Assembly: GCA_003250275.1 (NCBI GenBank)
Contig: QKGW01000561.1
Coordinates: 1 to 33,416, forward strand
DNA: 33,416 nucleotides
Source: Alphaproteobacteria bacterium
Lineage (GTDB): Bacteria > Pseudomonadota > Alphaproteobacteria > Rhodospirillales > Rhodospirillaceae
Reading direction: 5' to 3'
The notes beneath the pieces were generated by a model. It did not search any database, had not been told where the DNA came from, and saw only the letters and a program-made list of their open reading frames with translations. A program made the position numbers and the translations under genes. The stretch's first letter is position 1; each line of letters opens with the position of its first letter. Positions 17,354 to 32,657 of the stretch are shown here, piece by piece.

Positions 17354-17647
17354 CGGTTGGCCTCGTGCGGTGGCGACGAGCTTCCTTCCATAACACTGCT
17401 GCCGGGAAAATACACATAGATTCGATGTAGGTGATAAAAATTTACATAACGTGTGTTGATTTCCGGGCGCTATTGCGGTCGGTTGCTGTCCATCTAAAGC
17501 GTCGGAAGGTTTGTATCATATTGAAAATAACTATGAAAAATATAAGCTACATATACAACATCGAAAAAGTGTTAATCAAAATGAATCACTTGACTATCCA
17601 TTCTGTGTCGGGCTGAATGACCATCCGTTCCCTTTGAGGAGGTTGTC

Positions 17648-17704
17648 ATGAGGCGGTTTGACGCGTTGGGGCGATGTTGTCGCTCCGTGTGTATCGGGTT
17701 CTGA
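17648..17704 (+). CDS. Candidate Cys-rich leader peptide upstream of the metQNI-type operon
   Basis: SD gaggagg followed by ATG; translates to MRRFDALGRCCRSVCIGF* (18 aa, 3 Cys including a CysCys pair), ending 72 nt before metQ. Confidence 0.45.
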   Translation: MRRFDALGRCCRSVCIGF

Positions 17705-17722
17705 CTGCGCGCGTTCGGGAAT

Positions 17723-17759
17723 CTCCGCCCCGTCCGGCGTCGCGAAATCGTCGGCGGAG
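17723..17759 (+). promoter_or_regulatory. Hairpin overlapping a Shine-Dalgarno-like GGAGG near metQ; possible attenuator
   Basis: CTCCGCC (17723-17729) complements GGCGGAG (17753-17759); GGCGG in the leader ORF (17652-17656) can alternatively pair with CCGCC (17725-17729). Confidence 0.35.
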
Positions 17760-17776
17760 GATGGAGAAGACGAAAC

Positions 17777-18580
17777 ATGATGAAGATTTTTGGACGAATC
17801 ATCGCGGCGGCGGCACTGCTGACGGCGAGCGCGGCGCACGCGGCCGAGCCGGTGCACCTCAAGGTCGGCATCCGCGGTGGCATCGGCGAGGATGTGTGGG
17901 CGGTCGCGGCCAAGGTCGGCGAGCGCTACGGCCTCGCCATCGAGCCGGTGGTGTTCGCGGGCACGCTCAGCCCCAACGAGGCCCTCAACACCGGCGAGAT
18001 TCAGGCCAATTCGTTCCAGCACGTGCCGTTCTATCGCGATCAGGTGAAGCAGCGCGGCTACAAGCTCGCGATCGTCGGCAACACCTACCTCTCGCCGGTC
18101 GCGTTCTATTCCAAGAAATACAAGTCGCTGAACGACCTGCCCGTGGGCGCCAAGGTCGGCGTGCCGGATGATCCGAGCAACGAAAGCCGCGCCCTGGTGA
18201 TTTTGCGCGACGCGGGGCTGATTACCCTGCGCGACGGGATCGACACCTACAACGAGACCGTCGGCCTCAAGGACATCAAGGACAATCCGCGCAAGATCGA
18301 AATCGTCGAGGCGAAGTCGGTGGTGCTGGCGCGCGCCTATCAGGACGTCGATGCGGCGGCGGTGATCTCGTCGTTCGGGTCGCAGGTGGGGCTGAACGCG
18401 GCGCGCGACGGCATCGCCCAGGAGAAATTCGAGGGTAACCCCAACGTCAACATCATCGTCGTGCGCGAGCAGGACAAGGACGCGCCGTGGGTGAAGCCGC
18501 TGGTGAAGTCGTTCCAGTCGCCCGAGGTCAAGGACTACATCGAGACGCACCTCAAGGGCGTGCTGATCCCGGTGTTCTGA
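17777..18580 (+). CDS. metQ: MetQ/NlpA-family substrate-binding protein
   Basis: 267 aa; [13 protein letters not shown]...[19 protein letters not shown]...[17 protein letters not shown]; signal peptide ends AHA-A with no lipobox Cys. Confidence 0.88.
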
Positions 18581-18602: not shown

Positions 18603-19697
18603 ATGGTCCGCGAATTCGCCGCCGTTCCGGCGGTCGTCGATGAAATTCCCGAGGCCGCTCCGGCGGAGGCGCACGTCGTCTTCGACGGCGTCGGCAAGAC
18701 TTACGCCGGAGGGGTGCGGGCGCTGAACGGGGTGTCGTTCGGTATTCGCCGGGGCGGCGTGTTCGGCATCATCGGCCGCTCCGGCGCGGGCAAGTCGACG
18801 CTGCTGCGCGCCATCAACATGCTGGAGCGCCCCACCGAGGGCCGGGTGCTGGTGGACGGCGTCGACGTGGCCCGCCTCTCCGAGGCCGACCTGATGCGGC
18901 TGCGCCGCCGCATCGGCATGATCTTTCAGCACTTCAACCTGCTGGCAGCGAAGACGGTGCGCGAAAACATCGGCCTGCCGCTCAAGGTCGCCGGGGTTCC
19001 CGCCGCCGAGGTCCGCCGCCGGGTCGAGGCGCTGCTGGACCTGGTGGGGCTTTCCGACAAGGCCGACGTCTACCCGGCCAAACTCTCGGGTGGGCAGAAG
19101 CAGCGGGTCGGCATCGCCCGCGCGCTGGTCCACGATCCGGAAATCCTGCTGTGCGACGAGGCGACCTCCGCCCTCGACCCGGAGAGCACCGCCTCGATCC
19201 TCGCGCTCCTGCGCGACATCAACGCCAAGCTCGGTCTCACCGTGGTGCTGATCACCCACGACATGGCGGTGATCCGCGCGATCTGCGACGAGGTGCTGGT
19301 CCTCGACGGCGGCGACATCGTCGAGCAGGGGCCGGTGTGGAAGGTGTTCGGCGACCCGAAAGGCAACGCCACCCGCGCGCTGCTGTCGCCGTTGCGTCAT
19401 GGTCTGCCCGCCGACCTCGCCGCCCGCCTGCAACCCGAACCGCCGCCCCACGGCGGCCATGCGGTGCTGGCGCTGCGGTTCACCGGCGAGAGCCATCCGG
19501 ACGGCGTCTCTCTCGCCAATCTGCTGGCGTTGGCGCCGGATGCCAAGCTTCTGCACGGTGGCGTCGACCGGATCCAGGGCCACGCCCAGGGCGACCTGAT
19601 CGTCTCGGTGCCGGTGGCGGCGATGCGCTCCGCCGTCGGCGCGCGATTTTCCCCCGATTCCCTGAAGGTGCTCGGCTATGTCGCCCACGATGTTTGA
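18603..19697 (+). CDS. metN: MetN-type ABC transporter ATPase with C-terminal NIL domain
   Basis: Walker [10 protein letters not shown], signature [15 protein letters not shown], Walker [14 protein letters not shown]-terminal ~75 aa resembles NIL. Confidence 0.92.
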
Positions 19698-20334
19698 CCG
19701 CTACCTCCGCGCGTTTTCCGAAACCCTGACGATGGTCTCGATCTCGGTGGCGATCTCGATCTTCATCGGCCTGGTTCTCGCCGTCACCCTGGTCGCCACC
19801 GCGCCCGGCGGGCTTTACCCGCGGCCCAGGTTCAACAAGGCGGTGTCGGTGGTGGTGAACGTGTTCCGCGCCATCCCCTTCATCATTCTGCTGGTGGCGC
19901 TGCTGCCCTTCACCCGCCTGATCGTCGGCACCACCCTCGGCACCTGGGCGGCGATCGTGCCCTTGAGCATCCATCTGATCGCCTTCTACACCCGCATCGC
20001 CCAGGTCAGCCTCAACGAGGTCGATCACGGCCTGATCGAGGCGGCCCATGCGATGGGGTTCCGCCGCTGGCACATCGTCCGCCACGTGATGCTGCCCGAG
20101 GCGCTGCCCGGCATCGTCGGCGGCATGACGGTGTGCGTGATCGCGATGATCAACTCTTCGGCGATGGCCGGGGCGGTGGGCGCGGGCGGCCTCGGCGACC
20201 TCGCGATCCGCTACGGTTACGAGCGCTACGAGACCGAGGTGCTGTTCCAGATCATCGTCATCCTCGTCGCCCTGGTCACCACCGTACAGTTCGGCGGCGA
20301 ATGGCTCTCCCGCCGCGTCGACCACCGCCGCTGA
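19690..20334 (+). CDS. metI: MetI-type ABC transporter permease
   Basis: [32 protein letters not shown]...[25 protein letters not shown]; overlaps the metN end (alternative start 19678). Confidence 0.92.
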
Positions 20335-20353: not shown

Positions 20354-21313
20354 ATGTCCCGTACCGTTTCCATCGACGCCGCCCGCTACCTCGGCGTCGC
20401 GCGCCCCGAGCGGGTGCGCGACGACCTCGCCATCGAAGTGACGCCCAAAAGCTTTCCGCCCTATCTCGACGATCTTGCCGCCGACTGGGTGGCGAGCGTC
20501 GCGCTGCCCGCGTTCAAGCTGGTGAAGCAGCGGCGCGGCGAGACCCGGGGCTTCTGCGCGATCGGCACCGGCACCGGCCTCGACGCGCTCGGCGCGATCG
20601 AGGTGTTCGCGCCCGAGGTGGTGGGCGTCACCGACGTCCACGACGAGATCGTCGCTTCGGCGCGCGACAACATTCTCCGCAATCTCAATGCGCCCGAGGG
20701 CATCCGCTTGCTCTCCGGCACCGGCGACCTCCTGTCGCCGCTCGCCGGGGTCGCGCCGCGCTTCGACGTGATCTACGAAAATCTCCCCAACGTACCGACC
20801 AACGCCAGCGTCGCCCTGGCGGGGGAGCGGGCGAGTTCGAGCTTCTTCGGGCCGCGGCCGGAAGATGTGCCCGCCCCGGTGCAGGCGGCGCTGCTCACCC
20901 TCCACTACCTCGCGCTGGTGCAGGCGCGCGAGTATCTGGTTCCGGGCGGGGTGATGCTGTCGATGCTCGGCGCGCGGGTGCCGCTGCAGAGCTTCCTCGA
21001 CATGGCGGCGCTGGCGGGCTACCGGCCGTCGTTCCTCACCTATGGCTGGAAAATCCAGGCCGAGGCGGTGGAAATGCTCAACGGCCATGCCGAATGGCAG
21101 CGCCGCGGCATGGGACCGTTCCACTTCTACCGCATCGAGGATCTGGAGGCGGCGTTTGCCGATCTTGAGCCCGAGGCGGCCGCGCCCCGTGCTCTCGAAA
21201 TCGAGGCGGAACTGGCCTCCCGCGCGCTCGATGCCGACGCCGCCCTGGCGCTCCACCAACGGGGCACGCGCATCGGCCACACCTACGCGGTGCTGCATTC
21301 GGAGCTGCCGTGA
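20354..21313 (+). CDS. Class I SAM-dependent methyltransferase, HemK-like layout with atypical motif IV
   Basis: 319 aa; CAIGTGTGLDALGAIE (SAM loop), VVGVTDVHDEIVASARDNI, FDVIYENLPNVP in the NPPY position. Confidence 0.75.
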   Translation: MSRTVSIDAARYLGVARPERVRDDLAIEVTPKSFPPYLDDLAADWVASVALPAFKLVKQRRGETRGFCAIGTGTGLDALGAIEVFAPEVVGVTDVHDEIVASARDNILRNLNAPEGIRLLSGTGDLLSPLAGVAPRFDVIYENLPNVPTNASVALAGERASSSFFGPRPEDVPAPVQAALLTLHYLALVQAREYLVPGGVMLSMLGARVPLQSFLDMAALAGYRPSFLTYGWKIQAEAVEMLNGHAEWQRRGMGPFHFYRIEDLEAAFADLEPEAAAPRALEIEAELASRALDADAALALHQRGTRIGHTYAVLHSELP

Positions 21314-21909
21314 CGGTGGAAAGCCCCCTCGACCGCCTGCTGGCGCTGATGCGCGCGAGCTTCGTCAAGGCCGGGGCGGATGCGGCGGCGGCGGAAAGCG
21401 CGCGGGTGCTGGCGGCGTTGCCCGCGCCCGGTGCGCCGCTCGCGGCGCCGCTGACGGAGTCCGCGCATCCGCTGCTGGCGGAAGTGCCGGAGGCGGCGCG
21501 GGCGGCGGGCGGAGCATGGGCGGTAGAGTTGCTGCCGCTGGCGGCATGGCTGCCGTGGCGCTATTCCTACACTCCGAGGCCCGACGCGCCGGGCCTGGAA
21601 AACCGCATGGCGTGGGCCGAACTGGTGGGGCCTGCGGCGCCGATCCGTTCGGATGTCGTCGGCTTCGGCCTTACCGTCATCACCCGGAGTACCTTTTATC
21701 CGCCGCATCGCCATCCGGCGGTGGAACTCTACGCGGTGGTGGCGGGAGCTTCCGAATGGACGCTCGACGGCGTGACGCGCTCGTGCCGGGCAGGGGATTT
21801 TATCCTCCACCCGTCGGACGTGCCGCACGCGATGCGCGCCCTCGATGCGCCGTTGCTCGGGATCTACTCCTGGACCGGCGATATCGTCTCGGCCACCGCT
21901 TACCTCTGA
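21310..21909 (+). CDS. DMSP-lyase-like cupin (DddL/DddQ/DddW superfamily candidate)
   Basis: 199 aa; STFYPPHRHPAVELYAVVAGASEWTLDG...GDFILHPSDVPHAMRALDAPLLGIYSWTGDI: HxH...ExY...H metal-site pattern; 4-nt overlap with the methyltransferase. Confidence 0.65.
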   Translation: MTVESPLDRLLALMRASFVKAGADAAAAESARVLAALPAPGAPLAAPLTESAHPLLAEVPEAARAAGGAWAVELLPLAAWLPWRYSYTPRPDAPGLENRMAWAELVGPAAPIRSDVVGFGLTVITRSTFYPPHRHPAVELYAVVAGASEWTLDGVTRSCRAGDFILHPSDVPHAMRALDAPLLGIYSWTGDIVSATAYL

Positions 21910-21965: not shown

Positions 21966-22352
21966 TCAGTCATGGTCGACAAAGACGCTGCTGGCGACGG
22001 TGTCCACCCCGAACGCCTCCAGGGCCGCGTCCATCACCATGTCGAACTTCAATGCCGAATTGCAGGCGACGCACGGGTTGGGCGTGCGACCGTGGGCGTA
22101 GGCGGCGCGGAAGGGTTCGATTATGCGCCGGGTAAAGGCTTCGGCGGTGTCGAGGAAATAGTGGGCGATGCTGAGGTCGCGACATACTGCCGCCGCCTCG
22201 AAGCCGCAGCAGGGACGGGTGTTGCCGCAGGACTGTGGGATGCGCATCGTGACCCCGAACGCATCCCAGCCCCGGTTCAGCAAAAGCCGGGCGGTGGCGC
22301 TGGAATCGACGCCTCCGCTCATCAACACCGCCACTTTGCGCGGCCGTGACAA
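21966..22352 (-). CDS. Short PP-loop protein equivalent to the N-terminal part of MnmA (tRNA 2-thiouridylase)
   Basis: 128 aa; VAVLMSGGVDSSATA, PCCG, GRTPNPCVACNSALKF; stops at AFGVDTVASSVFVDHD where MnmA would continue (ATGHYAR region); TTG start. Confidence 0.65.
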   Translation of the reverse strand: MSRPRKVAVLMSGGVDSSATARLLLNRGWDAFGVTMRIPQSCGNTRPCCGFEAAAVCRDLSIAHYFLDTAEAFTRRIIEPFRAAYAHGRTPNPCVACNSALKFDMVMDAALEAFGVDTVASSVFVDHD

Positions 22353-22381: not shown

Positions 22382-23458
22382 CTAGTCCGCCAGAAGCGTA
22401 TCGAGGTCGAATCCCTGGCCGGTCGCGGCGGTGCGCAGCGCGGACAGCGTTTCCGGGGCGATCTTGAGGCCGGTACGGGCGGCGTGCAGGCGGTTTCCGC
22501 GTTCCGGGTCGCCGGGCAGCAGCACCCGTTCGACACCATGTGCGGGCGGCGTGCCGGCGACGTAGCCGTAGACCTCGTCGGCGAGGCCCGTCCAGTCGCC
22601 GTCGGCGATCCGGGCCGGATCGAAGACGAAGGCGAGGACGTTGTTGACGATCCGTCCCGGGCGGAGATTGGCGGGCAGCGACGGTAATCCCGCCGCGATC
22701 ACGCCGCCGAGGATCTCGCAGACGAGCGCGAGGCCCGAGCCCTTATGCCCTCCGAACGGGAGGATCGCGCCGGTGGGCTCCGAGAACATCACCGAGGGGG
22801 CGCGGGTCGCTTCGCCCCGTGGGCCGATCAGTTGGCCGTCGTCCATCTCCTCTCCGCGGTTCATCGCCACCCGGCATTTGTTGGCGGCGACCGCGCTGGT
22901 GGCGAAATCGAGCAGCAGAGGCGGATGTGCGGGGGTGGCCGGCAGGGCGACGCAGATTGGATTGGTGCCGAGGCGCGGACGGATGCCGCCGAACGGCGCC
23001 TGTTGCGGCCGGCTCACGACGTTGACGAAGAATACCGCCGCCAGCCCGGCGCGGATCGCCTGTTCGCCGTAGCTGCCGACGCGGCCGATGTGGTGGGCGT
23101 TGCGGATCGCGAGGATCGTCGCGCCCTTCGTCTTCGCACGCGCGATCGCAAGGTCGGCGGCCTCGCGGGCGATCACTTGGCCGTAGCCGAAGTCGCCGTC
23201 CACCACCAGGAACGGCGGTTCGTCGCGCAGGATGCGGGCGTGGCGGTCGGGCTGGAGGTGGTCGAGCGCAAGGCTGTTGAGGTAGATCGGCACCTGGCAG
23301 AGGCCATGGCTGGCGTGGCCGGTGGCTTCCGCGTCGACGAGGTTGCGGGCGACGATGCCCGCCTCTCCGGGAGAGCTGCCCGCGCGGACGAAGATTTCGG
23401 TGACGGCGGCGGTGACGCGGTCGAGGGCGAAGGTGGTGGTGGCGGCCGGTTCGTGCAT
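22382..23458 (-). CDS. Ldh2/MDG-family malate/L-lactate (or sulfolactate ComC-type) dehydrogenase
   Basis: 358 aa; ATGHASHGLCQVPIYL, VRNAHHIGRVGSYGEQA-like IRNAHHIGRVGSYGEQA, LDFATSAVA, FGGHKGSGLALVCEILGG. Confidence 0.88.
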   Translation of the reverse strand: MHEPAATTTFALDRVTAAVTEIFVRAGSSPGEAGIVARNLVDAEATGHASHGLCQVPIYLNSLALDHLQPDRHARILRDEPPFLVVDGDFGYGQVIAREAADLAIARAKTKGATILAIRNAHHIGRVGSYGEQAIRAGLAAVFFVNVVSRPQQAPFGGIRPRLGTNPICVALPATPAHPPLLLDFATSAVAANKCRVAMNRGEEMDDGQLIGPRGEATRAPSVMFSEPTGAILPFGGHKGSGLALVCEILGGVIAAGLPSLPANLRPGRIVNNVLAFVFDPARIADGDWTGLADEVYGYVAGTPPAHGVERVLLPGDPERGNRLHAARTGLKIAPETLSALRTAATGQGFDLDTLLAD

Positions 23459-23465
23459 CGTCCCC

Positions 23466-24707
23466 TCACAGGCTGGCGTAGTCGATGGGGGCGAGGCGGT
23501 CGAGGCTGCGCGTCACCGGCGGCAGCGGATACTTGAGGCCGCTCGCGCAGTTGAACAGCACCACCCGCTCGGCGGCGGAGACCAGCCCGTCGGCGAGTGC
23601 CTGCTCGTAGGCCGCGACCGTCGCCGCGCCTTCCGGGCAGAGCAGCAGGCCGTCGTCCTTCGCGGTGCGGTCGAGGGCGGCGCGGATCGCGTCGTCGTCC
23701 ACCGCGATCGCGAAGCCGCCGCTTTCCCGCACCGCGCGCAGGATCAAAAAGTCGCCAACAGCTTGCGGCACGCGGATTCCGGCGGCGAAGGTGTGGGCGT
23801 TTTCCCAGCGCGGCGCGTGTTCGACACCGGTCTTCCAAGCCTCGACCATCGGCGCGCAGCCGCTCGCCTGGACCGCTACCATCCGGGGCAGTTTGCCGGT
23901 GATGAAGCCGATTTCGCGGAGTTCGGCGAACGCTTTCCACATGCCGATCAGGCCGGTGCCGCCGCCGGTGGGGTAGAAGATGACGTCGGGAAGCTTCCAG
24001 CCGAGCTGTTCCGCGAGCTCCAGGCCCATAGTCTTCTTGCCCTCGATGCGATAGGGCTCCTTGAGCGTCGAGACGTCGAACCATCCGGCCTCCGTCTTGC
24101 CTGCGCCGACGATCTTGCCGCAATCGTCGATCAGGCCGTTGACGCGATAGACGGTGGCGCCCTGGAGTTCGATTTCGGAGACGTTCACTTCCGGCGTATC
24201 GGCGGGGCAGAAGATCGTCGAGCGGATGCCCGCGCGGCTGGCGTAGGCGGCTAGGGCCGCACCCGCATTGCCGTTGGTGGGCATGGCGACGCGGGAAATC
24301 CCGAGCTCCTTCGCCATCGCCACCGCGAGGGCGAGCCCGCGCGCCTTGAACGAGCCGGTCGGCAGCCGGCCTTCGTCCTTCACCAGCGCCGGAGCCGCCC
24401 CGAGGCGCTTCGCCAGCGCCGGCAGGCTCACCAGCGGCGTTTCCACCTCGCCGAGGCTGACGATGTTCGCCGTGCGCCGTACCGGCAGCAACTCGCGGTA
24501 ACGCCACAAACCGGAGGGGCGCGCCGACAGGGCGTCCTTGGTGAGGGTCCGGCGAACGCCGTCGAGGTCGTAGCGCACCAGCAGCGGCTTGCCCGCTTCC
24601 GAAAGATTGTGAACGGTATCGGCGGGATAGGCCTTGCCGGTATAGGCGCACTCGAGGTGAGTGACGAAGGTCGGCCGCTCGGTGGCGAGATTGGCATCGA
24701 AGGACAC
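23466..24707 (-). CDS. Threonine synthase-like fold-type II PLP enzyme
   Basis: 413 aa; LVKDEGRLPTGSFKARGLA (PLP Lys), PTNGNAGAALAAYASRAGI, FYPTGGGTGLIGMWKAF. Confidence 0.85.
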   Translation of the reverse strand: MSFDANLATERPTFVTHLECAYTGKAYPADTVHNLSEAGKPLLVRYDLDGVRRTLTKDALSARPSGLWRYRELLPVRRTANIVSLGEVETPLVSLPALAKRLGAAPALVKDEGRLPTGSFKARGLALAVAMAKELGISRVAMPTNGNAGAALAAYASRAGIRSTIFCPADTPEVNVSEIELQGATVYRVNGLIDDCGKIVGAGKTEAGWFDVSTLKEPYRIEGKKTMGLELAEQLGWKLPDVIFYPTGGGTGLIGMWKAFAELREIGFITGKLPRMVAVQASGCAPMVEAWKTGVEHAPRWENAHTFAAGIRVPQAVGDFLILRAVRESGGFAIAVDDDAIRAALDRTAKDDGLLLCPEGAATVAAYEQALADGLVSAAERVVLFNCASGLKYPLPPVTRSLDRLAPIDYASL

Positions 24708-24728
24708 GATGAAACTCCGAATGAAGGG

Positions 24729-25562
24729 TTAGCGGACCATGCCCCAGCGGCGCACGGTGCGGTCGGCGATGGCGCGGAACACCACCGCCTCGACGAGGAG
24801 GCCGATGACGATCACCGCGATCAGCCCGGCGAAGACCTTGTCGATGTAAAGCTCGTTGCGGTTCTGGAAGATGAACCACCCGAGCCCGCCCTTGCCCGAC
24901 GACACCCCGAACACCAGTTCGGCCGCGATCAGGGTGCGCCAAGCGAACGCCCAGCCGACCTTGAGGCCGCTCAGGATCGCGGGAAACGCGGCGGGGATCA
25001 GGATCAGCCAGACGTAGCGCAGGCCTCGGAGGCCGTAATTCCGGCCGGTCATCCGCAGAGTTTCGGATACCGCGGTGAAACCGGCGTGGGTGTTGAGCGC
25101 AAGCGGCCACAGCACCGCGTGGACCAGCACGAACATGAGGCTGACCTCGCCGAGGCCGAACCACAGCATCGCGAGCGGCAGCAGCGCGATCGCGGGTAGC
25201 GGGTTGAACATTGCGGTGAGCGTGGCGAGGATATCGTTACCGATGCGGGTGGAGACCGCGAAGGCGGTGGCGAACATCGCCAGCGCCACCGCGACGGCAT
25301 AGCCCTTGAGCAGCGTGGCAAGGGAAACCCACGCCATGCCGAGCAGGTTGTCGCGCGTCACGCCTTCCCACAGTGCCGCGGTGGTGGCGGCGAAGGTGGG
25401 GAACATTAGCGGATTGTTTTGCCAACGTGCGGCGATCTCCCATGCCAGGGCGACGCAGGCGAGCACCAGCACCCGGCGCAACGGGGTGTTGCGCGCGAGG
25501 CGGGCGGCGAGTGGCAGTGGCCGCGCCACCGTATCGGCGGCGGTTTCGGCGATCTCGCTCAT
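24729..25562 (-). CDS. SsuC/TauC-type ABC transporter permease
   Basis: 277 aa; LLPLAMLWFGLGEVSLMFVLVHAVLWPLALNTHAGF, LIPAAFPAILSGLKVGWAFAWRTLIAAELVFG. Confidence 0.88.
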   Translation of the reverse strand: MSEIAETAADTVARPLPLAARLARNTPLRRVLVLACVALAWEIAARWQNNPLMFPTFAATTAALWEGVTRDNLLGMAWVSLATLLKGYAVAVALAMFATAFAVSTRIGNDILATLTAMFNPLPAIALLPLAMLWFGLGEVSLMFVLVHAVLWPLALNTHAGFTAVSETLRMTGRNYGLRGLRYVWLILIPAAFPAILSGLKVGWAFAWRTLIAAELVFGVSSGKGGLGWFIFQNRNELYIDKVFAGLIAVIVIGLLVEAVVFRAIADRTVRRWGMVR

Positions 25563-26356
25563 ATCTGGAAATCTCCTTGCGCGGCCTCGCGCGTGGCGAA
25601 GAGCATGTCGTGGATGCGCGAGGCGGTGTCCTGGAACACGCGGCTGCCGATCGCGGCGCGGCCGAACTCGCGGCAGTCGATCTCGGCCCTGACCCGTCCG
25701 GGATGGGGCGAGAGCACGAGGATGCGGCTGCCGACGATCAGCGCTTCCTCGATCGAATGGGTGACGAACAGCATGGTGAAGCGGATGTCTTCCCACAGTC
25801 GCAGGAGGTCGTCCTGCATTTGCTGGCGGGTGAGGGCGTCGAGCGCAGCGAAGGGTTCGTCCATCAGGAGAATGTCGGGTTCCATGGCGAGCGCGCGGGC
25901 GATCGCGACGCGCTGCTTCATGCCGCCCGAGAGCATGTGCGGATGGACATCGGCGAATTTTGCGAGGCCGACGCGGGCGATCGCCTCCTCCGACCGGAGT
26001 TCCGCCGTGGCGCGATCGACGCGGCGGCTGGCGAGCAGGGGAAAAGTCACGTTCTGTCGCACCGTTTTCCACGGCAGCAACTGGTCGAATTCCTGGAACA
26101 CCATCATCCGGTCCGGTCCGGGTCCGGTCACCGCTTTGCCGCGCAGCCGCACCTCGCCCGCCTCGGGCTTGAGAAAACCGCCCACCGCCTTGAGAAGCGA
26201 CGATTTGCCGCATCCCGAGGGGCCGAGAAGGACGAAGCGCTCGCCCGCGCGCACCGAGAAGCCCACGCGCTCGGTGGCGGTGATGACGTGGTCGCGGGCG
26301 GCGTAACGCAGGGTTACGCCGTCCGCGAGCAGAAGGGGGTTCGTGCCGCCGCTCAA
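25559..26356 (-). CDS. SsuB/TauB-type ABC transporter ATPase
   Basis: 265 aa from a TTG overlapping the upstream stop; LLGPSGCGKSSLL, HMLSGGMKQRVAIARAL, ILLMDEPFAALDALTR. Confidence 0.88.
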   Translation of the reverse strand: MSGGTNPLLLADGVTLRYAARDHVITATERVGFSVRAGERFVLLGPSGCGKSSLLKAVGGFLKPEAGEVRLRGKAVTGPGPDRMMVFQEFDQLLPWKTVRQNVTFPLLASRRVDRATAELRSEEAIARVGLAKFADVHPHMLSGGMKQRVAIARALAMEPDILLMDEPFAALDALTRQQMQDDLLRLWEDIRFTMLFVTHSIEEALIVGSRILVLSPHPGRVRAEIDCREFGRAAIGSRVFQDTASRIHDMLFATREAAQGDFQI

Positions 26357-27354
26357 TTGCCGCCTCCGGCGTAGACGTCCTCGAAGAAAACGTCCTTCCA
26401 CGAGGTCACCGGATGCTTGATGGCTCCGACCTTGAACATGAACGCTCCGAACTTCTCCAGCCCGCGCGGTTGGGTGGTGAACTTGATCTCCGGGTCGGCG
26501 AGCAGGCGATCGAGCAGGGCGCGATCCAGGCTGCCCTTGTTCTGCGCCTGATAGATGTCCGCCGCCGCCTTGGGGTCCGCGCTGATCAGGTCCATGGCTT
26601 CCCGGAGTGCGGCGAGGAACGCCTTGTAGGTCTTCGGGCTGTCCTTGCGGTAGGCCTCGCGCGTCCAGATCAGGTTGAAGGTGTGCGGCCCGCCGAAGAC
26701 GTCGTAGGAACTCAGGACCTTGTGGATCTTCGGATCCTGAAGTTGCTGGTACTGGAACGGCGGACTGCCGAGGTTGGCGGTGATGTCGGTGCTCCCCGCG
26801 AGTAGCGCCGCGGTGGCGTCGGGGTGCGGCAGCGCGACGGTGTGCTTGTCGAGGATGTCGTACTTGTTCTCGCCGAACGCTTGCTCTGCAGCCATCTGAA
26901 GGATCCGCGCCTGGATGCCCACCTTGGGTGCGGGCAGGGCGATCTTGTCCTTGTCGGTGAAGTCCTTGATCGTCTTCACCGCCGGGTTGGTGGTGGTGAG
27001 GAACAGCGGCATGGTGTTGAGCGCCGCGATCGCCTTGACGTTGGCGTTGCCGTGAGTGCGGTCCCAGATCGTCAGCAGCGGGCCCACGCCGGCGGACCCG
27101 AGGTCGATGCTGCCGGAAAGCAGCGCGTCGTTCATCGCCGCCCCGCCCGAAAGCTTGACCCACTCGACCGAGATATCGATTCCCTCGGCCTTGCCATGCT
27201 TTTCGATCAATCCATGCTGGCGGATGACGTGGAGCGGCAGGTAGCCGAGGCCGTATTGCTCGGCGATGCGGATCGTTCCCTCGGCGTGTGCGGGAGCCGC
27301 CGCAGCGAGCAGGCTGCCGAGTGCCAATCCCGCGAAAAGCTGTTTCAGTCTCAT
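26353..27354 (-). CDS. SsuA/TauA-like periplasmic substrate-binding protein
   Basis: MRLKQLFAGLALGSLLAAAAPAHAEGTIRIAEQYGLGYLPLHVIRQHGLIEKHGK...NDALLSGSIDLGSAGVGPLLTIWD. Confidence 0.85.
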   Translation of the reverse strand: MRLKQLFAGLALGSLLAAAAPAHAEGTIRIAEQYGLGYLPLHVIRQHGLIEKHGKAEGIDISVEWVKLSGGAAMNDALLSGSIDLGSAGVGPLLTIWDRTHGNANVKAIAALNTMPLFLTTTNPAVKTIKDFTDKDKIALPAPKVGIQARILQMAAEQAFGENKYDILDKHTVALPHPDATAALLAGSTDITANLGSPPFQYQQLQDPKIHKVLSSYDVFGGPHTFNLIWTREAYRKDSPKTYKAFLAALREAMDLISADPKAAADIYQAQNKGSLDRALLDRLLADPEIKFTTQPRGLEKFGAFMFKVGAIKHPVTSWKDVFFEDVYAGGGN

Positions 27355-27666: not shown

Positions 27667-27876
27667 ATGAGCATTACCGTCAATGGAGAGATCGCTCCGT
27701 TCACACCGGAGCAAACGATCGCGGAGCTTCTCGACGACCGCGGCGTCGGCGCCGACGCGCCGGTCGCGGTGCAGCGCAACGGAGCGTTCGTCGCGCCCGG
27801 AGCCTTCGCGGAAACCGTGCTCGCGGACGGCGACGTCGTGGAATACCTGTTCTTTCTCGGAGGAGGGCGGCCGTGA
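27667..27876 (+). CDS. ThiS/MoaD-like sulfur carrier protein with C-terminal -GGGRP (HcyS-type candidate)
   Basis: 69 aa MSITVNGEIAPFTPEQTIAELLDDRGV...VLADGDVVEYLFFLGGGRP; beta-grasp ThiS pattern; first gene of the coupled operon. Confidence 0.85.
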   Translation: MSITVNGEIAPFTPEQTIAELLDDRGVGADAPVAVQRNGAFVAPGAFAETVLADGDVVEYLFFLGGGRP

Positions 27877-29138
27877 GCCGCGGGTTCGCCACCCTCGCGG
27901 TGCACGGGCCCGTGCCAGGCCGGGCCGGGCAGGAGGGGACGTTGCGGCCGCCGGTCTACGACAACGCCGCTTTCGCCTTTGCCTCCGCCGCCGACATGCA
28001 GGCGGCGTTCGAGGGACGGCTGGCGGCGCACGCCTATTCGCGGGTATCCAACCCCACGGTACAGGCGTTCGAGGAGCGGGTCGCGGCCCTGGCCGGAGCG
28101 CGCGGCGCGCTCGCGGTGGCTTCGGGCATGGCGGCGATCGCCAACGTCGTTCTGGCGCTGGGGGAGAGCGGTGCGAACGTCGTCACCACCCGTCACGTGT
28201 TCGGCAACACCGCCTCGCTGTTCGCGCAGACGCTCGCGCCCTGGGGGCTCGAGGTGCGGTTCGCCGACTTCACCGCACCGGAGGCGGTGGCCGCGGCGAT
28301 CGACGGGCGCACGTGCGCGGTGTTCTTCGAAACCATCACCAATCCACAGATGGAGGTGGCCGACGCCCGCGCCATCGCTTCGGCCGCCCACGCGCGCGGC
28401 GTGCCGGTGGTGGCCGACGGCACCGCCACGACGCCCTACCTTTTCGACGCCAAGACGTTCGGCATCGACGTCGAGGTGATCTCCTCGACCAAATACATGT
28501 CGGGCGGCGCCACTTCGATCGGCGGCGTGATCCTCGATTACGGCAGCTTCGACTGGAGCAGATCGCCGCGCCTTGCCGAATCGGCGCGGCGCTTCGGTCC
28601 CCATGCGCTGCTGTTCGCATTGCGGCGCGAGGTCTATCGCAACCTCGGCGCCTGTCTCGCCCCCCATGCCGCGTTCCTTCAGACCCTCGGTCTCGAAACC
28701 CTGGCGCTGCGTGTCGGTGCGAGCTGCGCCAACGCGCGTAGCCTCGCCAACTGGCTCGAAGGCCGCCCGGAGGTGCTGAGGGTCAACTATCCCGGACTCG
28801 CAAGCTCGGCGTTCCACGCGCTTGCACGGGCACAGTTCCCGCGCGGCACCGGCGGCATTCTGACGTTCGACCTCGGCGGCAAGGCGGAGGCGTTCGCGTT
28901 CATGGATGCGCTGACGCTGATCCGCCGCGCCACCAACGTCCACGACAACAAGACGCTGATCATTCATCCGGCGAGCACGATCTTCTGCGACTACGGGCCC
29001 GAGGAGCGGCTGGCGATGGGAGTCTCCGACGCCACTCTGCGTCTTTCGACGGGCATCGAGGACGGCCCCGATCTGATCGCCGATCTCGAACGTGGGCTCG
29101 CGGCGGTCGCGGCCGTGCGCTTGGGGGGTGCAGCATGA
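27873..29138 (+). CDS. metY: O-acetylhomoserine sulfhydrylase-like PLP enzyme (MetY family)
   Basis: 421 aa from a GTG overlapping the carrier stop (GTGA); YSRVSNPTVQAFEERVAALAGARGALAVASGMAA, ISSTKYMSGGATSIGG, HDNKTLIIHPASTIF. Confidence 0.88.
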   Translation: MSRGFATLAVHGPVPGRAGQEGTLRPPVYDNAAFAFASAADMQAAFEGRLAAHAYSRVSNPTVQAFEERVAALAGARGALAVASGMAAIANVVLALGESGANVVTTRHVFGNTASLFAQTLAPWGLEVRFADFTAPEAVAAAIDGRTCAVFFETITNPQMEVADARAIASAAHARGVPVVADGTATTPYLFDAKTFGIDVEVISSTKYMSGGATSIGGVILDYGSFDWSRSPRLAESARRFGPHALLFALRREVYRNLGACLAPHAAFLQTLGLETLALRVGASCANARSLANWLEGRPEVLRVNYPGLASSAFHALARAQFPRGTGGILTFDLGGKAEAFAFMDALTLIRRATNVHDNKTLIIHPASTIFCDYGPEERLAMGVSDATLRLSTGIEDGPDLIADLERGLAAVAAVRLGGAA

Positions 29139-29953
29139 TCGATTTCACCGACGAGCGGCTGGAGCGCTACAGCCGACACATTCTTCTGAGGGACGTGGGC
29201 ATCGCCGGACAGCAGCGGCTCTGGAATGGCCGGGTGCTGGTGGTCGGCGCCGGCGGGCTCGGCGCTCCTGTCGCGCTTTATCTCGCCGCCGCCGGGGTCG
29301 GCACCCTCGGCATTGCCGACGCCGATGCGGTGGATCTTTCCAACCTCCAGCGCCAGGTGATCCACTTCACCCCCGACGTCGGCAAGCCGAAGGTCCGCTC
29401 GGCGGCGGAGAAGATCGCGCTCCTCAACCCGGATGTGACGGTGCGGCAGCACCATGAATTCCTTACCGCCGACAATATCCTCGACACCATCGCCGATTAC
29501 GACTTCGTCATCGACGGCACCGACAGCTTCGGTGCCAAGTTCCTGATCAACGACGCCTGCGTGATCGCCGGCAAGCCGTTCTCCCACGGCGGCATCCTGC
29601 GCTTCCGAGGCCAGACGATGACGGTGCTGCCGGGGAAGTCCGCCTGCTATCGCTGCGTCTTCGGCGCGCCACCGCCGCCCGGAACCGCGCCGACATGCTC
29701 GCAGGCCGGGGTGCTGGGCGCGATCGCGGGAATGCTCGGCACCATCCAGGCCGCCGAGGCGCTGAAGTTCTTCACCGGTGCCGGCACGCCGCTCGCCGAC
29801 GCGCTGCTTACCTTCGATGCGCTCGACATGAATTTCCGCAAGGTGCCGCTGAAGCGTAACGCCGCCTGCCCGGTGTGCGGGGCGCGCCCGACCATCCTGA
29901 CGCCCGAGGACGCCGCACCGGAAGTCTGCGATCTCGAGGGGGTGCGCGCATGA
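29135..29953 (+). CDS. ThiF/MoeB/HcyF-like E1 adenylyltransferase
   Basis: 272 aa; RYSRHILLRDVGIAGQQRLWNGRVLVVGAGGLGAPVALYLAAAGVGTLGIADADAVDLSNLQRQ, CYRC / CPVC Zn-type pairs. Confidence 0.92.
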   Translation: MIDFTDERLERYSRHILLRDVGIAGQQRLWNGRVLVVGAGGLGAPVALYLAAAGVGTLGIADADAVDLSNLQRQVIHFTPDVGKPKVRSAAEKIALLNPDVTVRQHHEFLTADNILDTIADYDFVIDGTDSFGAKFLINDACVIAGKPFSHGGILRFRGQTMTVLPGKSACYRCVFGAPPPPGTAPTCSQAGVLGAIAGMLGTIQAAEALKFFTGAGTPLADALLTFDALDMNFRKVPLKRNAACPVCGARPTILTPEDAAPEVCDLEGVRA

Positions 29954-30351
29954 GCTTGACGGTTTCCCGTGCGGCGCTCGCCGAGATGATCGCCCACGCC
30001 CGCGCCGACTTGCCCAACGAAGCCTGCGGCTATCTCGGCGAGAAGGGCGGCGTGGTCGGCCGGGTGATCCGCCTCACCAATGCCGACGCGTCGCCCGAGC
30101 ACTACAGTCTGCTTCCTGCCGAGCAATTCGCGGCGGTGCGGGCGTTGCGCTCCGAGGGCTTCGTCTTGCGTGCGGTCTACCACAGCCACCCGGAAAGTCC
30201 GGCGCGGATGTCGGCGGAGGACCTGCGTCTCGCCGCCGATCCAGGTCTCAGCTACGTCATCGTTTCGCTGGAGGCGGCGGAACCGGTGATCAAATCTTTC
30301 AGAGTCGACGGGACGGCGGGGGAGGAAGAGCTCCACGCCGCCGAGGAGTGA
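29950..30351 (+). CDS. JAMM/MPN-family metalloprotease (Mec/QbsD/HcyD-like)
   Basis: 133 aa; PNEACGYLGE, VYHSHPESPARMSAED = E...HSHP...S..D JAMM motif; ATGA overlap with the E1 gene. Confidence 0.88.
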   Translation: MSLTVSRAALAEMIAHARADLPNEACGYLGEKGGVVGRVIRLTNADASPEHYSLLPAEQFAAVRALRSEGFVLRAVYHSHPESPARMSAEDLRLAADPGLSYVIVSLEAAEPVIKSFRVDGTAGEEELHAAEE

Positions 30352-32657
30352 ATGCGATGTTCTACCAGATACCCGACAACCTCGCCGCCGAATTGGCGGA
30401 ACTCGAAAGTCACGTGGAGCGCTTCCGCGCGGGCGAGCTGGACGCGGCGTCGTTCAAGGCGCGGCGGGTGCCGTTCGGCTGCTACGAGCAGCGCCGCGAC
30501 GACACCTACATGGTGCGCATCCGCGCCACCGGCGGCGCGGTCACGCCCGCGCAGCTCCGCGCCATCGGCGAGATCTCCGAACGCTACCGTTCACCCTCGA
30601 TCCACGTCACCACCCGGCAGGAGTTTCAGATTCACGACCTCGACCTCGAAAGCGTGGTCCCGGCGATGCGAGACCTCCTTGCAGCCGGACTTTCCACGCG
30701 TGGCGGCGGCGGCAATACGGTGCGTAACATCATGATCTCACCCGGCGCCGGGGTGGAAGCCGACGAGGTTTTCGATCCCTCGGGTCACGCCTTCGCGCTC
30801 ACCGACCGCCTGATCGCCGAGGGCGATTCCTGGAACCTGCCGCGCAAGCTCAAGATCGCTTTTTCCAACTCGGATGCCGACACCGCCTATGCCGAGTTCA
30901 ACGATCTCGGTTTCGTTGCGCGCATCGAGAATGGCGTGCGGGGATTCCGGGTGTTCGTCGCCGGCGGGCTCGGCACCAAGCCGGAGGTCGGCCACCTGCT
31001 GCACGAGTTCGTCCCCGAAACCGACGTCTACCTCGTTGCCGCGGCGGTCAAGCGTCTGTTCGACAAGAACGGCAACCGCAAGAACCGCAATGCCGCGCGC
31101 CTGCGCTTCCTCTGGCGCAAGATCGGCGCGGAGGCGTTTCGTGCCCTCTACGAGGCCGAGCGCGCCGCCCTCGCCGCCGGGAATCCGCCGCCGCTGGTGG
31201 CGAAGACTTTTCCGGAGAGCGCCCGTCCGGCGGTCGCCGCCGCCTGCGATCCCGACGATGCCGAAGCCTTCGGTCTGTGGCGGCGGAGATACGTCCAACC
31301 CCAGCCGCAGCCTGGGCTGGTTTCGGTGGTGTTGCCCGCTTCCCTCGGCAACCTCGGCAACGCCGACATGGTTCGTCTTGCCGGGTTTCTCGAATCTCTG
31401 GGCCCGCACACCGTGCGCGCGACCTTCGGCCAGAATTTGCGGCTGCGGAACATCCCCGAGAGTCTGCTGCCCGATCTCTGGGCCCTGGTGCGCGGGTTCG
31501 ATCCGTTGGCGTCTCGGCCGCGCACGCTCGCCGACGCGATCGCCTGCACCGGCGCGGACACCTGCAAGCTCGGCATGTGCCGTCCCAAGGGCGCGCTCGC
31601 CGCGATCACCGGCGCGCTCGCCAAATCCGGCCTGGGGCTCGACGAAATTCCCGGTTTCCGCCTCAACGTTTCCGGCTGCCCCAACACCTGCGGTCAGCAT
31701 ATGCTTGCCGATCTCGGCCTGTTCGGGGGCGCGGGGCGCAAGGGGCAACGCCTTTATCCCGCCTACATGGTGGTGGCGGGGGCGGAGATCGGGGCGGGCA
31801 GGGCGCGTCTGGCGCGGAGCTTCGCGCGCGTTCCCGCACGCGATCTGCCGAAGTTCGTCGTCGACGTGGCGCGCACCTGGCTGGCCAAGCGCGGTGCCTA
31901 CGCCTCGTTCGCCGACTACGTGGACGGTGCGGGCGCAGACGATATCCGGGCCGCAGTGGCGCGCTTCGCCGACGTGCCCGCCTTTGAGGACGACAAGAAC
32001 TATTATTACGACTGGGGCGACGACGAGGTGTTCTCGTTCGTCGGGCGTGGGAGCGGCGAATGCTCGGCAGGCCTGTTCGATCTCATCGACGTGGATCTCA
32101 AGGGCGCCCGCGCGTTGGTCGCCCTCCCGCCGGAGCAGGAAACCCTGCGGGAACTGGCGCTGCGCTGCGCCCGCGCGCTCTTGATCTCCCGGGGGGTCGA
32201 GCCCGCCGACGATGGCGAGGTGTTCGCCTATTTCACCAAGCACTTCATTTCCGCCGGACTGATCCCCGAGCGCTTCCGCGCGGCGGTGGTGGCGGCGCAA
32301 AAGGGTGCTCCCCTGGGGGAGCACCACGGCGATCTGGTCGCGCTGCTACGCGTGGTGGAGGAACTTTACGACAATATGGACGCCTCGCTCCGTTTCCCCG
32401 GCGAGAGCGGAGCGGTGGCGTTCGCCGTGCCTGTCGCGGCTTTGGAGCGTGACTACAGTACCGTTGCCTGCCCCCTCAATTTCGTGAAGGTCAAGTTTGA
32501 TCTGGAAACCATCCGGGCGGGGGAGACCCTCAAAGTCATTCTCGGAGATGGTGAACCTATCCGCAACGTCCCGCCCTCGATCGCGTCGGAAGGACACAAG
32601 GTGCTCAGCCAGACCCGCACGGGCGATGTTTGGGAAGTTCTGATCGAGAAGGTCTGA
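30348..32657 (+). CDS. Sulfite reductase (siroheme/4Fe-4S) with helical insert and C-terminal TusA-like domain
   Basis: 769 aa (GTG; alternative ATG 30357); TTRQEFQIHD, ACTGADTCKLGMCRPKG, NVSGCPNTCGQH; C-terminus ACPLNFVKVKFDLETIRAGETLKVILGDGEPIRNVPPSIASEGHKVL. Confidence 0.88.
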   Translation: MNAMFYQIPDNLAAELAELESHVERFRAGELDAASFKARRVPFGCYEQRRDDTYMVRIRATGGAVTPAQLRAIGEISERYRSPSIHVTTRQEFQIHDLDLESVVPAMRDLLAAGLSTRGGGGNTVRNIMISPGAGVEADEVFDPSGHAFALTDRLIAEGDSWNLPRKLKIAFSNSDADTAYAEFNDLGFVARIENGVRGFRVFVAGGLGTKPEVGHLLHEFVPETDVYLVAAAVKRLFDKNGNRKNRNAARLRFLWRKIGAEAFRALYEAERAALAAGNPPPLVAKTFPESARPAVAAACDPDDAEAFGLWRRRYVQPQPQPGLVSVVLPASLGNLGNADMVRLAGFLESLGPHTVRATFGQNLRLRNIPESLLPDLWALVRGFDPLASRPRTLADAIACTGADTCKLGMCRPKGALAAITGALAKSGLGLDEIPGFRLNVSGCPNTCGQHMLADLGLFGGAGRKGQRLYPAYMVVAGAEIGAGRARLARSFARVPARDLPKFVVDVARTWLAKRGAYASFADYVDGAGADDIRAAVARFADVPAFEDDKNYYYDWGDDEVFSFVGRGSGECSAGLFDLIDVDLKGARALVALPPEQETLRELALRCARALLISRGVEPADDGEVFAYFTKHFISAGLIPERFRAAVVAAQKGAPLGEHHGDLVALLRVVEELYDNMDASLRFPGESGAVAFAVPVAALERDYSTVACPLNFVKVKFDLETIRAGETLKVILGDGEPIRNVPPSIASEGHKVLSQTRTGDVWEVLIEKV

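Follow-up and report, generated by a model that had tools for sequence, protein, structure and literature searches.

A short upstream reading frame with cysteine codons, retained in part of a genus, before a metQNI-type transporter operon of an alphaproteobacterium: a candidate regulatory leader

The classical attenuators of proteobacteria (trp, his, leu, ilv) combine a leader peptide with alternative pairings in front of an amino-acid-related operon. Cysteine leader peptides of actinobacteria are reportedly termed leaderless in the title of a publication by Canestrari et al. of 2020. In the leader peptides of actinobacterial cys operons, runs of Cys codons are located near the stop and are conserved among relatives (PMC1262725, PMC4633059); several Cys-rich leader peptides were reported from mycobacteria (PMC4633059, PMC9094748). 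A different type is CutF of the cutFOG genes of Rhodobacter capsulatus, an exported protein with a signal sequence, a copper-binding CxxxC motif and a proline-rich stalling end, which is followed by a stem-loop shielding a Shine-Dalgarno (SD) sequence (PMC9973294). CutF shows that alphaproteobacteria can combine an upstream peptide containing Cys with a stem-loop that shields an SD, although it senses copper and is exported (PMC9973294). A copper-responsive upstream ORF with Cys is also described for Bordetella (PMC9426467). The Cys-responsive leader peptides in the publications consulted are all actinobacterial; an alphaproteobacterial case before a transporter for sulfur compounds, if true, would extend them.

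The DNA analysed here (the window) is the whole stretch of 33,416 nucleotides from a member of the Rhodospirillaceae; features are on the plus strand unless stated otherwise. An upstream ORF (uORF) of 18 codons, MRRFDALGRCCRSVCIGF*, extends from 17648 to 17704, with ATG at 17648–17650 and TGA at 17702–17704, and the SD sequence GAGGAGG (17636–17642) is located 5 nt 5' of the ATG. Its three Cys codons, all TGT, lie within 17675–17692, namely a tandem (17675–17677 and 17678–17680) and a single codon (17690–17692). The first-pass annotation, made from the letters of the window, had pointed out the 18-codon ORF after a strong SD and its three Cys codons including the tandem, and all of these were found at the positions given there. 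The first TGT follows a CGA, and this pair (Arg-Cys, 17672–17677), nine codons 5' of the stop, is a rare one and a candidate pause site: in a sister genome, CGA accounts for 3% of the Arg codons and TGT for 7% of the Cys codons, and the genes of the window contain TGC 51 times and TGT once. Rare codons of this kind could indicate pausing, or they may simply reflect the composition of non-coding DNA. A putative sigma-70-like promoter (17590–17618) was read by eye, consisting of TTGACT (17590–17595), a spacer of 17 nt and CTGAAT (17613–17618); the parts TTGAC and ..AAT recur, with a 17-nt spacer, in two related loci (L011 and L013, see below). Since a consensus promoter scan did not call the TTGACT/CTGAAT pair, we infer this promoter; given it, transcription would start near 17625.

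The uORF shares with the actinobacterial leaders its shortness, the Cys codons and the position before sulfur genes, and an intrinsic terminator was found in neither. Unlike these, it possesses an SD, occurs in an alphaproteobacterium before a gene for part of a transporter, and shows no conservation of its Cys run; and if it does sense Cys, it is the only such leader in its genus as far as examined, whereas several are reported from mycobacteria. The annotation had compared the uORF with actinobacterial attenuation, which is apt for the type of mechanism, but the conserved Cys runs of those peptides are missing here. A leader peptide, alternative pairings and an amino-acid-related operon are common to this locus and the classical attenuators; in contrast to these, the window leader has no terminator hairpin with a U run and few regulatory codons, and the sensor codons are not conserved. 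Both CutF and the Bordetella uORF are likewise proteobacterial upstream ORFs containing Cys, and in CutF a stem-loop masking the SD of the following gene is present as well, but its signal sequence, CxxxC motif and proline-rich end are no conserved feature of the window uORF.

The first gene of the operon, metQ (17777–18580), encodes a substrate-binding lipoprotein of the MetQ/NlpA family (PF03180, E = 3e-67; TIGR00363, 228.7 bits versus a cut-off of 228.85). It is followed by metN (18603–19697) for an ABC ATPase, whose top NCBIfam match is TIGR02314 (MetN), under the cut-off, and metI (19678–20334) for an ABC permease (PF00528; top match NF008049, MetI, with 198 bits versus a cut-off of 212). 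A putative methyltransferase (20354–21313; weak NCBIfam match to NF011529), which adjoins metI in the related loci L011–L013 as well, and a DMSP-lyase-family cupin (21310–21909; PF16867, E = 5e-18) complete the operon. Best family matches would make metQ, metN and metI methionine-type genes; this assignment of the substrate is tentative, because metN and metI score under the curated cut-offs and metQ falls just short of its own. The cupin and the putative methyltransferase in the same operon suggest that the substrate may be other than methionine itself. The placing of the ORF before metQNI in the annotation agrees with family matches and orthologs, which indicate a retained uORF before a transporter operon of the sulfur-amino-acid type.

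Close MetQ orthologs were obtained, with a divergently oriented FAD oxidase gene on the upstream side and metN, metI and the methyltransferase gene on the other as in the window, from L011 (genome G026), L012 and L013 (genome G023). At metQ of two congeners a uORF is present, MRRIEATGRCRRPLSTGF in L011 and MPLVQTPSFRCRCGSPSRF (19 codons) in L013, preceded by the SD sequences GAAGGAGG and CAGGAG, respectively, and the distance between the uORF stop and the metQ ATG is 72 nt in the window, 70 nt in L011 and 73 nt in L013. L012 has neither the start nor the stop at the corresponding place, and the ORF is lost. The record containing L012 (NZ_NRRU01000061.1) is titled Rubrivivax gelatinosus, a betaproteobacterium, and shows the same operon and synteny, with a MetQ of 86% identity; the operon being otherwise alphaproteobacterial, the record is possibly mislabelled. 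The same search of L014–L019, which are more distant orthologs from Telmatospirillum, Azospirillum and Arenibaculum, yielded no uORF with SD ending before metQ; L017 has a Cys-less frame of 10 codons with GTG start, which overlaps the metQ start.

The uORFs of the window and L011 share 75% identity, compared with 82% at the four-fold sites of metQ, and eight amino acids are changed in 18 codons; the peptide as such therefore drifts and is not conserved. From the uORF stop to the end of the hairpin described below, identity is 89%. The two sequences are too close to be informative, and because divergence in this pair is near neutral, retention of the uORF between them is by itself weak evidence. 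The leader of L013 is 45% identical to that of the window, which is no better than shuffled sequences (mean 42%, maximum 51%), and a uORF of such length and place arose in 0.16% of shuffles of the L013 leader. The numbers of Cys codons are three (window), one (L011) and two (L013), the only shared position being one TGT, always after CGA and at an identical codon distance from the stop; it is the first Cys codon of the window. The tandem is private to the window genome, and the nearest ortholog, L011, lost two of the three Cys codons. Measured against the refuting condition of the annotation, an ORF that is not conserved, the answer is divided: the ORF holds up, but the Cys codons largely fail. 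The CGA-TGT segment belongs also to a hairpin within the uORF (17668–17686), in which GGGGCGA (17668–17674) is paired with TCGCTCC (17680–17686) according to fold and alignment, one G-U pair being G-C in L011; for this reason, its conservation could have a structural cause.

Searching 297 genomes of the order with the leader DNA produced strong matches in the window and in G026 only, and MetQ proteins at E ≤ 1e-95 were found, among 317 genomes, in three members of the genus and two of another family of the order. A degenerate pattern (SD-ATG-...-RCCR) was applied to 73 genomes of the family; six in-frame matches were followed among those listed, with gene context listed for two, and were judged to be due to chance. 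At loci of the MetQ/NlpA, cysteine synthase (cysKM) and SsuA families in eight congeners, no other Cys-rich uORF with SD was judged credible. A Cys sensor, if real, would thus be solitary within the genus as far as examined.

The leader contains several segments which compete for the same partner. An inverted repeat covers the metQ ribosome-binding region, CTCCGCC (17723–17729) with GGCGGAG (17753–17759); the annotation had reported this pairing together with a complementarity of GGCGG (17652–17656) to CCGCC (17725–17729), and both are present. Its SD-like GGAGG exists as well (17756–17760), but is 16 nt from the metQ ATG at 17777, a long distance for an SD; GGAGA (17763–17767), paired with TCTCC (17722–17726) in the minimum-energy fold, is the likelier metQ SD. 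In predicted folds, the 5' arm of the SD-masking hairpin, AATCTCCGCCCCGTCCGGCG (17720–17739), has an alternative pairing of AATCTCC with GGAGGTT (17638–17644) of the uORF SD, and the 3' arm (17749–17767) comprises GGCGGAG and GGAGA. The CTCC segment (17723–17726) of the window has three partners with similar predicted energies, of -12.8 kcal/mol with the uORF SD, -14.7 kcal/mol with the uORF codons and -15.4 kcal/mol with the metQ SD. As read by eye, GGAGGTT/AATCTCC is replaced in L011 by GGAGGCT/AGCCTCC, the uORF SD retaining its partner with one pair altered on both sides, which has no statistical weight with two sequences. The CTCCGCC/GGCGGAG repeat is mostly retained in L011; the hairpin was not seen in the L013 leader. 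Folds are not unusually stable, neither for the full leader (z = -1.07) nor for its 3' part (z = +0.39), and stability alone thus provides no support for the hairpin.

Ribosome stalling was modelled by placing a footprint of 28 nt at each codon, with static folds and ignoring co-transcriptional order. Accessibility of the metQ SD stayed at 0.28–0.35 in the window and at 0.25–0.31 in L011 for all stalls, including those at Cys codons; for the metQ SD region of L013, with a starting value of 0.34, stalls at the two Cys codons gave 0.52 and 0.58, and stalling between them gave 0.65. No intrinsic terminator (GC-rich hairpin plus T run) was found before metQ in 17354–17790, and the leader does not qualify as a transcription attenuator on this count. 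Rfam searches of the window at the gathering score returned a tRNA (64–137) only and no riboswitch (SAM, cobalamin, others) in the leader.

In the mechanism which we infer, from translation of the uORF and the ribosome pause to the cysteine input and the induction of transport as output, the metQNI transcript would begin with about 150 nt of leader carrying the translated uORF, and the progress of ribosomes through the uORF would set the accessibility of the metQ start region. When charged Cys-tRNA is scarce, decoding at CGA-TGT, nine codons before the stop, would become slow and the ribosome would be held on the uORF; CTCC could then change partners between the metQ SD and the SD and codons of the uORF, metQ translation would be altered, and transport would presumably be induced under sulfur shortage. 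The observed basis comprises the uORF and its SD, both retained in two congeners at a fixed spacing, together with the conserved CGA-TGT and the competing complementary segments. From the comparisons of sequences, the uORF is highly probably a real one, as judged by its retention within part of the genus, and a regulatory role is probable. Among possible inputs, cysteine is the best guess, which fails the main comparative test and is correspondingly tentative; the model as a whole, with uORF pausing, SD masking and charging of Cys-tRNA as the leading input, should likewise be regarded as provisional. Rather unlikely is the narrow version, in which one conserved slow pair, CGA-TGT, in an otherwise freely evolving uORF reads Cys-tRNA charging and switches CTCC between masking of the uORF SD and masking of the metQ SD. 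The uORF is not a demonstrated Cys attenuator. Of the Cys sensing proposed in the annotation, there remain the repeat which masks the SD and a single Cys codon whose distance from the stop is equal in the three species, whereas Cys richness varies, the uORF is absent from L012, no credible counterpart was found at the other sulfur loci examined in the genus, and a modelled Cys stall does not free the metQ SD of the window. If the model is true, selection can keep a uORF for its spacing and the position of a codon although the peptide drifts, and this bears on the detection of leader peptides by conservation.

To estimate the expectation by chance, the leader was shuffled 20,000 times at constant dinucleotide composition; the figures refer to one leader and are uncorrected for how many leaders were inspected in the annotation. 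An ATG uORF of 8–40 codons preceded by an SD occurred in 2.7% of shuffled leaders, with at least two Cys codons in 0.37% and at least three in 0.075%; 0.2% had a uORF of 15–22 codons with its stop 65–80 nt 5' of the gene. A seeded codon model served to call genes in 1.2 Mb of the congener G027; 15 ATG uORFs with SD were counted among the 559 leaders obtained, and a single one, before a doubtful gene, had at least three Cys codons. Because of this rarity in shuffles and in G027, the uORF is unusual, beyond chance. A non-functional SD-like stretch with a short ORF, noticed since sulfur genes prompt a search for Cys codons, would be in keeping with the frequency of any SD-ATG uORF in shuffled leaders, with the lack of an ORF in L012 and with the weak, near-neutral retention in L011; this explanation is improbable in view of the L013 leader, which has diverged strongly and yet shows the same arrangement, with Cys at an equal distance from the stop.

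Conservation of SD, start, stop and spacing, but not of the peptide, would also be expected if the uORF were regulatory or structural without reading cysteine, ribosome loading at the strong SD being what matters, whatever the peptide. The leader could be shielded from decay or Rho and CTCC kept off one or the other SD, or initiation at the uORF could compete with that at metQ. This is quite conceivable, if short of probable: CTCC is able to pair with either SD, and the pair altered on both sides in L011 fits as well, but the unchanged codon position of CGA-TGT in L013 would not be explained, and the SD-CTCC pairing was found in two species only. Very improbable is a uORF of the CutF/Upf type, which would sense a metal or act through its nascent peptide and in which Cys residues (CCxxxC) bind a ligand and an SD-masking stem-loop follows. 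The window peptide has C-x3-C (C11, C15) and an SD-masking stem, but with 18 codons it has neither a signal sequence nor a proline-rich stalling end, the peptides of L011 and L013 (18–19 codons) lack CxxxC and do not qualify as CutF/Upf-type, and the metQNI operon is not metal-related.

The metQNI-type operon adjoins several sulfur genes. On the minus strand, 22382–27354 encodes an SsuA-type binding protein, an ABC ATPase, a permease, a PLP enzyme (PF00291) and a dehydrogenase of the Ldh_2 family (PF02615), a cluster which looks like one for uptake and use of sulfonates. On the plus strand, 27667–32657 contains genes for a ThiS-like carrier (PF02597), ThiF (PF00899), a JAB protease (PF14464), an O-acetylhomoserine-sulfhydrylase-like enzyme (best match TIGR01326, under the cut-off) and a sulfite-reductase-like protein that ends in a TusA domain (PF01077, PF01206); this set resembles the protein-thiocarboxylate route to homocysteine known from Wolinella. 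An ORF of 128 amino acids at 21966–22352 (minus strand) matches positions 2–125 of the 202 of the tRNA_Me_trans HUP domain (PF03054) and is possibly a truncated MnmA-like gene. Elsewhere in the genome (G000:C202:1676–4056), three MetQ/NlpA-family genes are arranged in tandem, and the seven congeners have two or three such copies as well.
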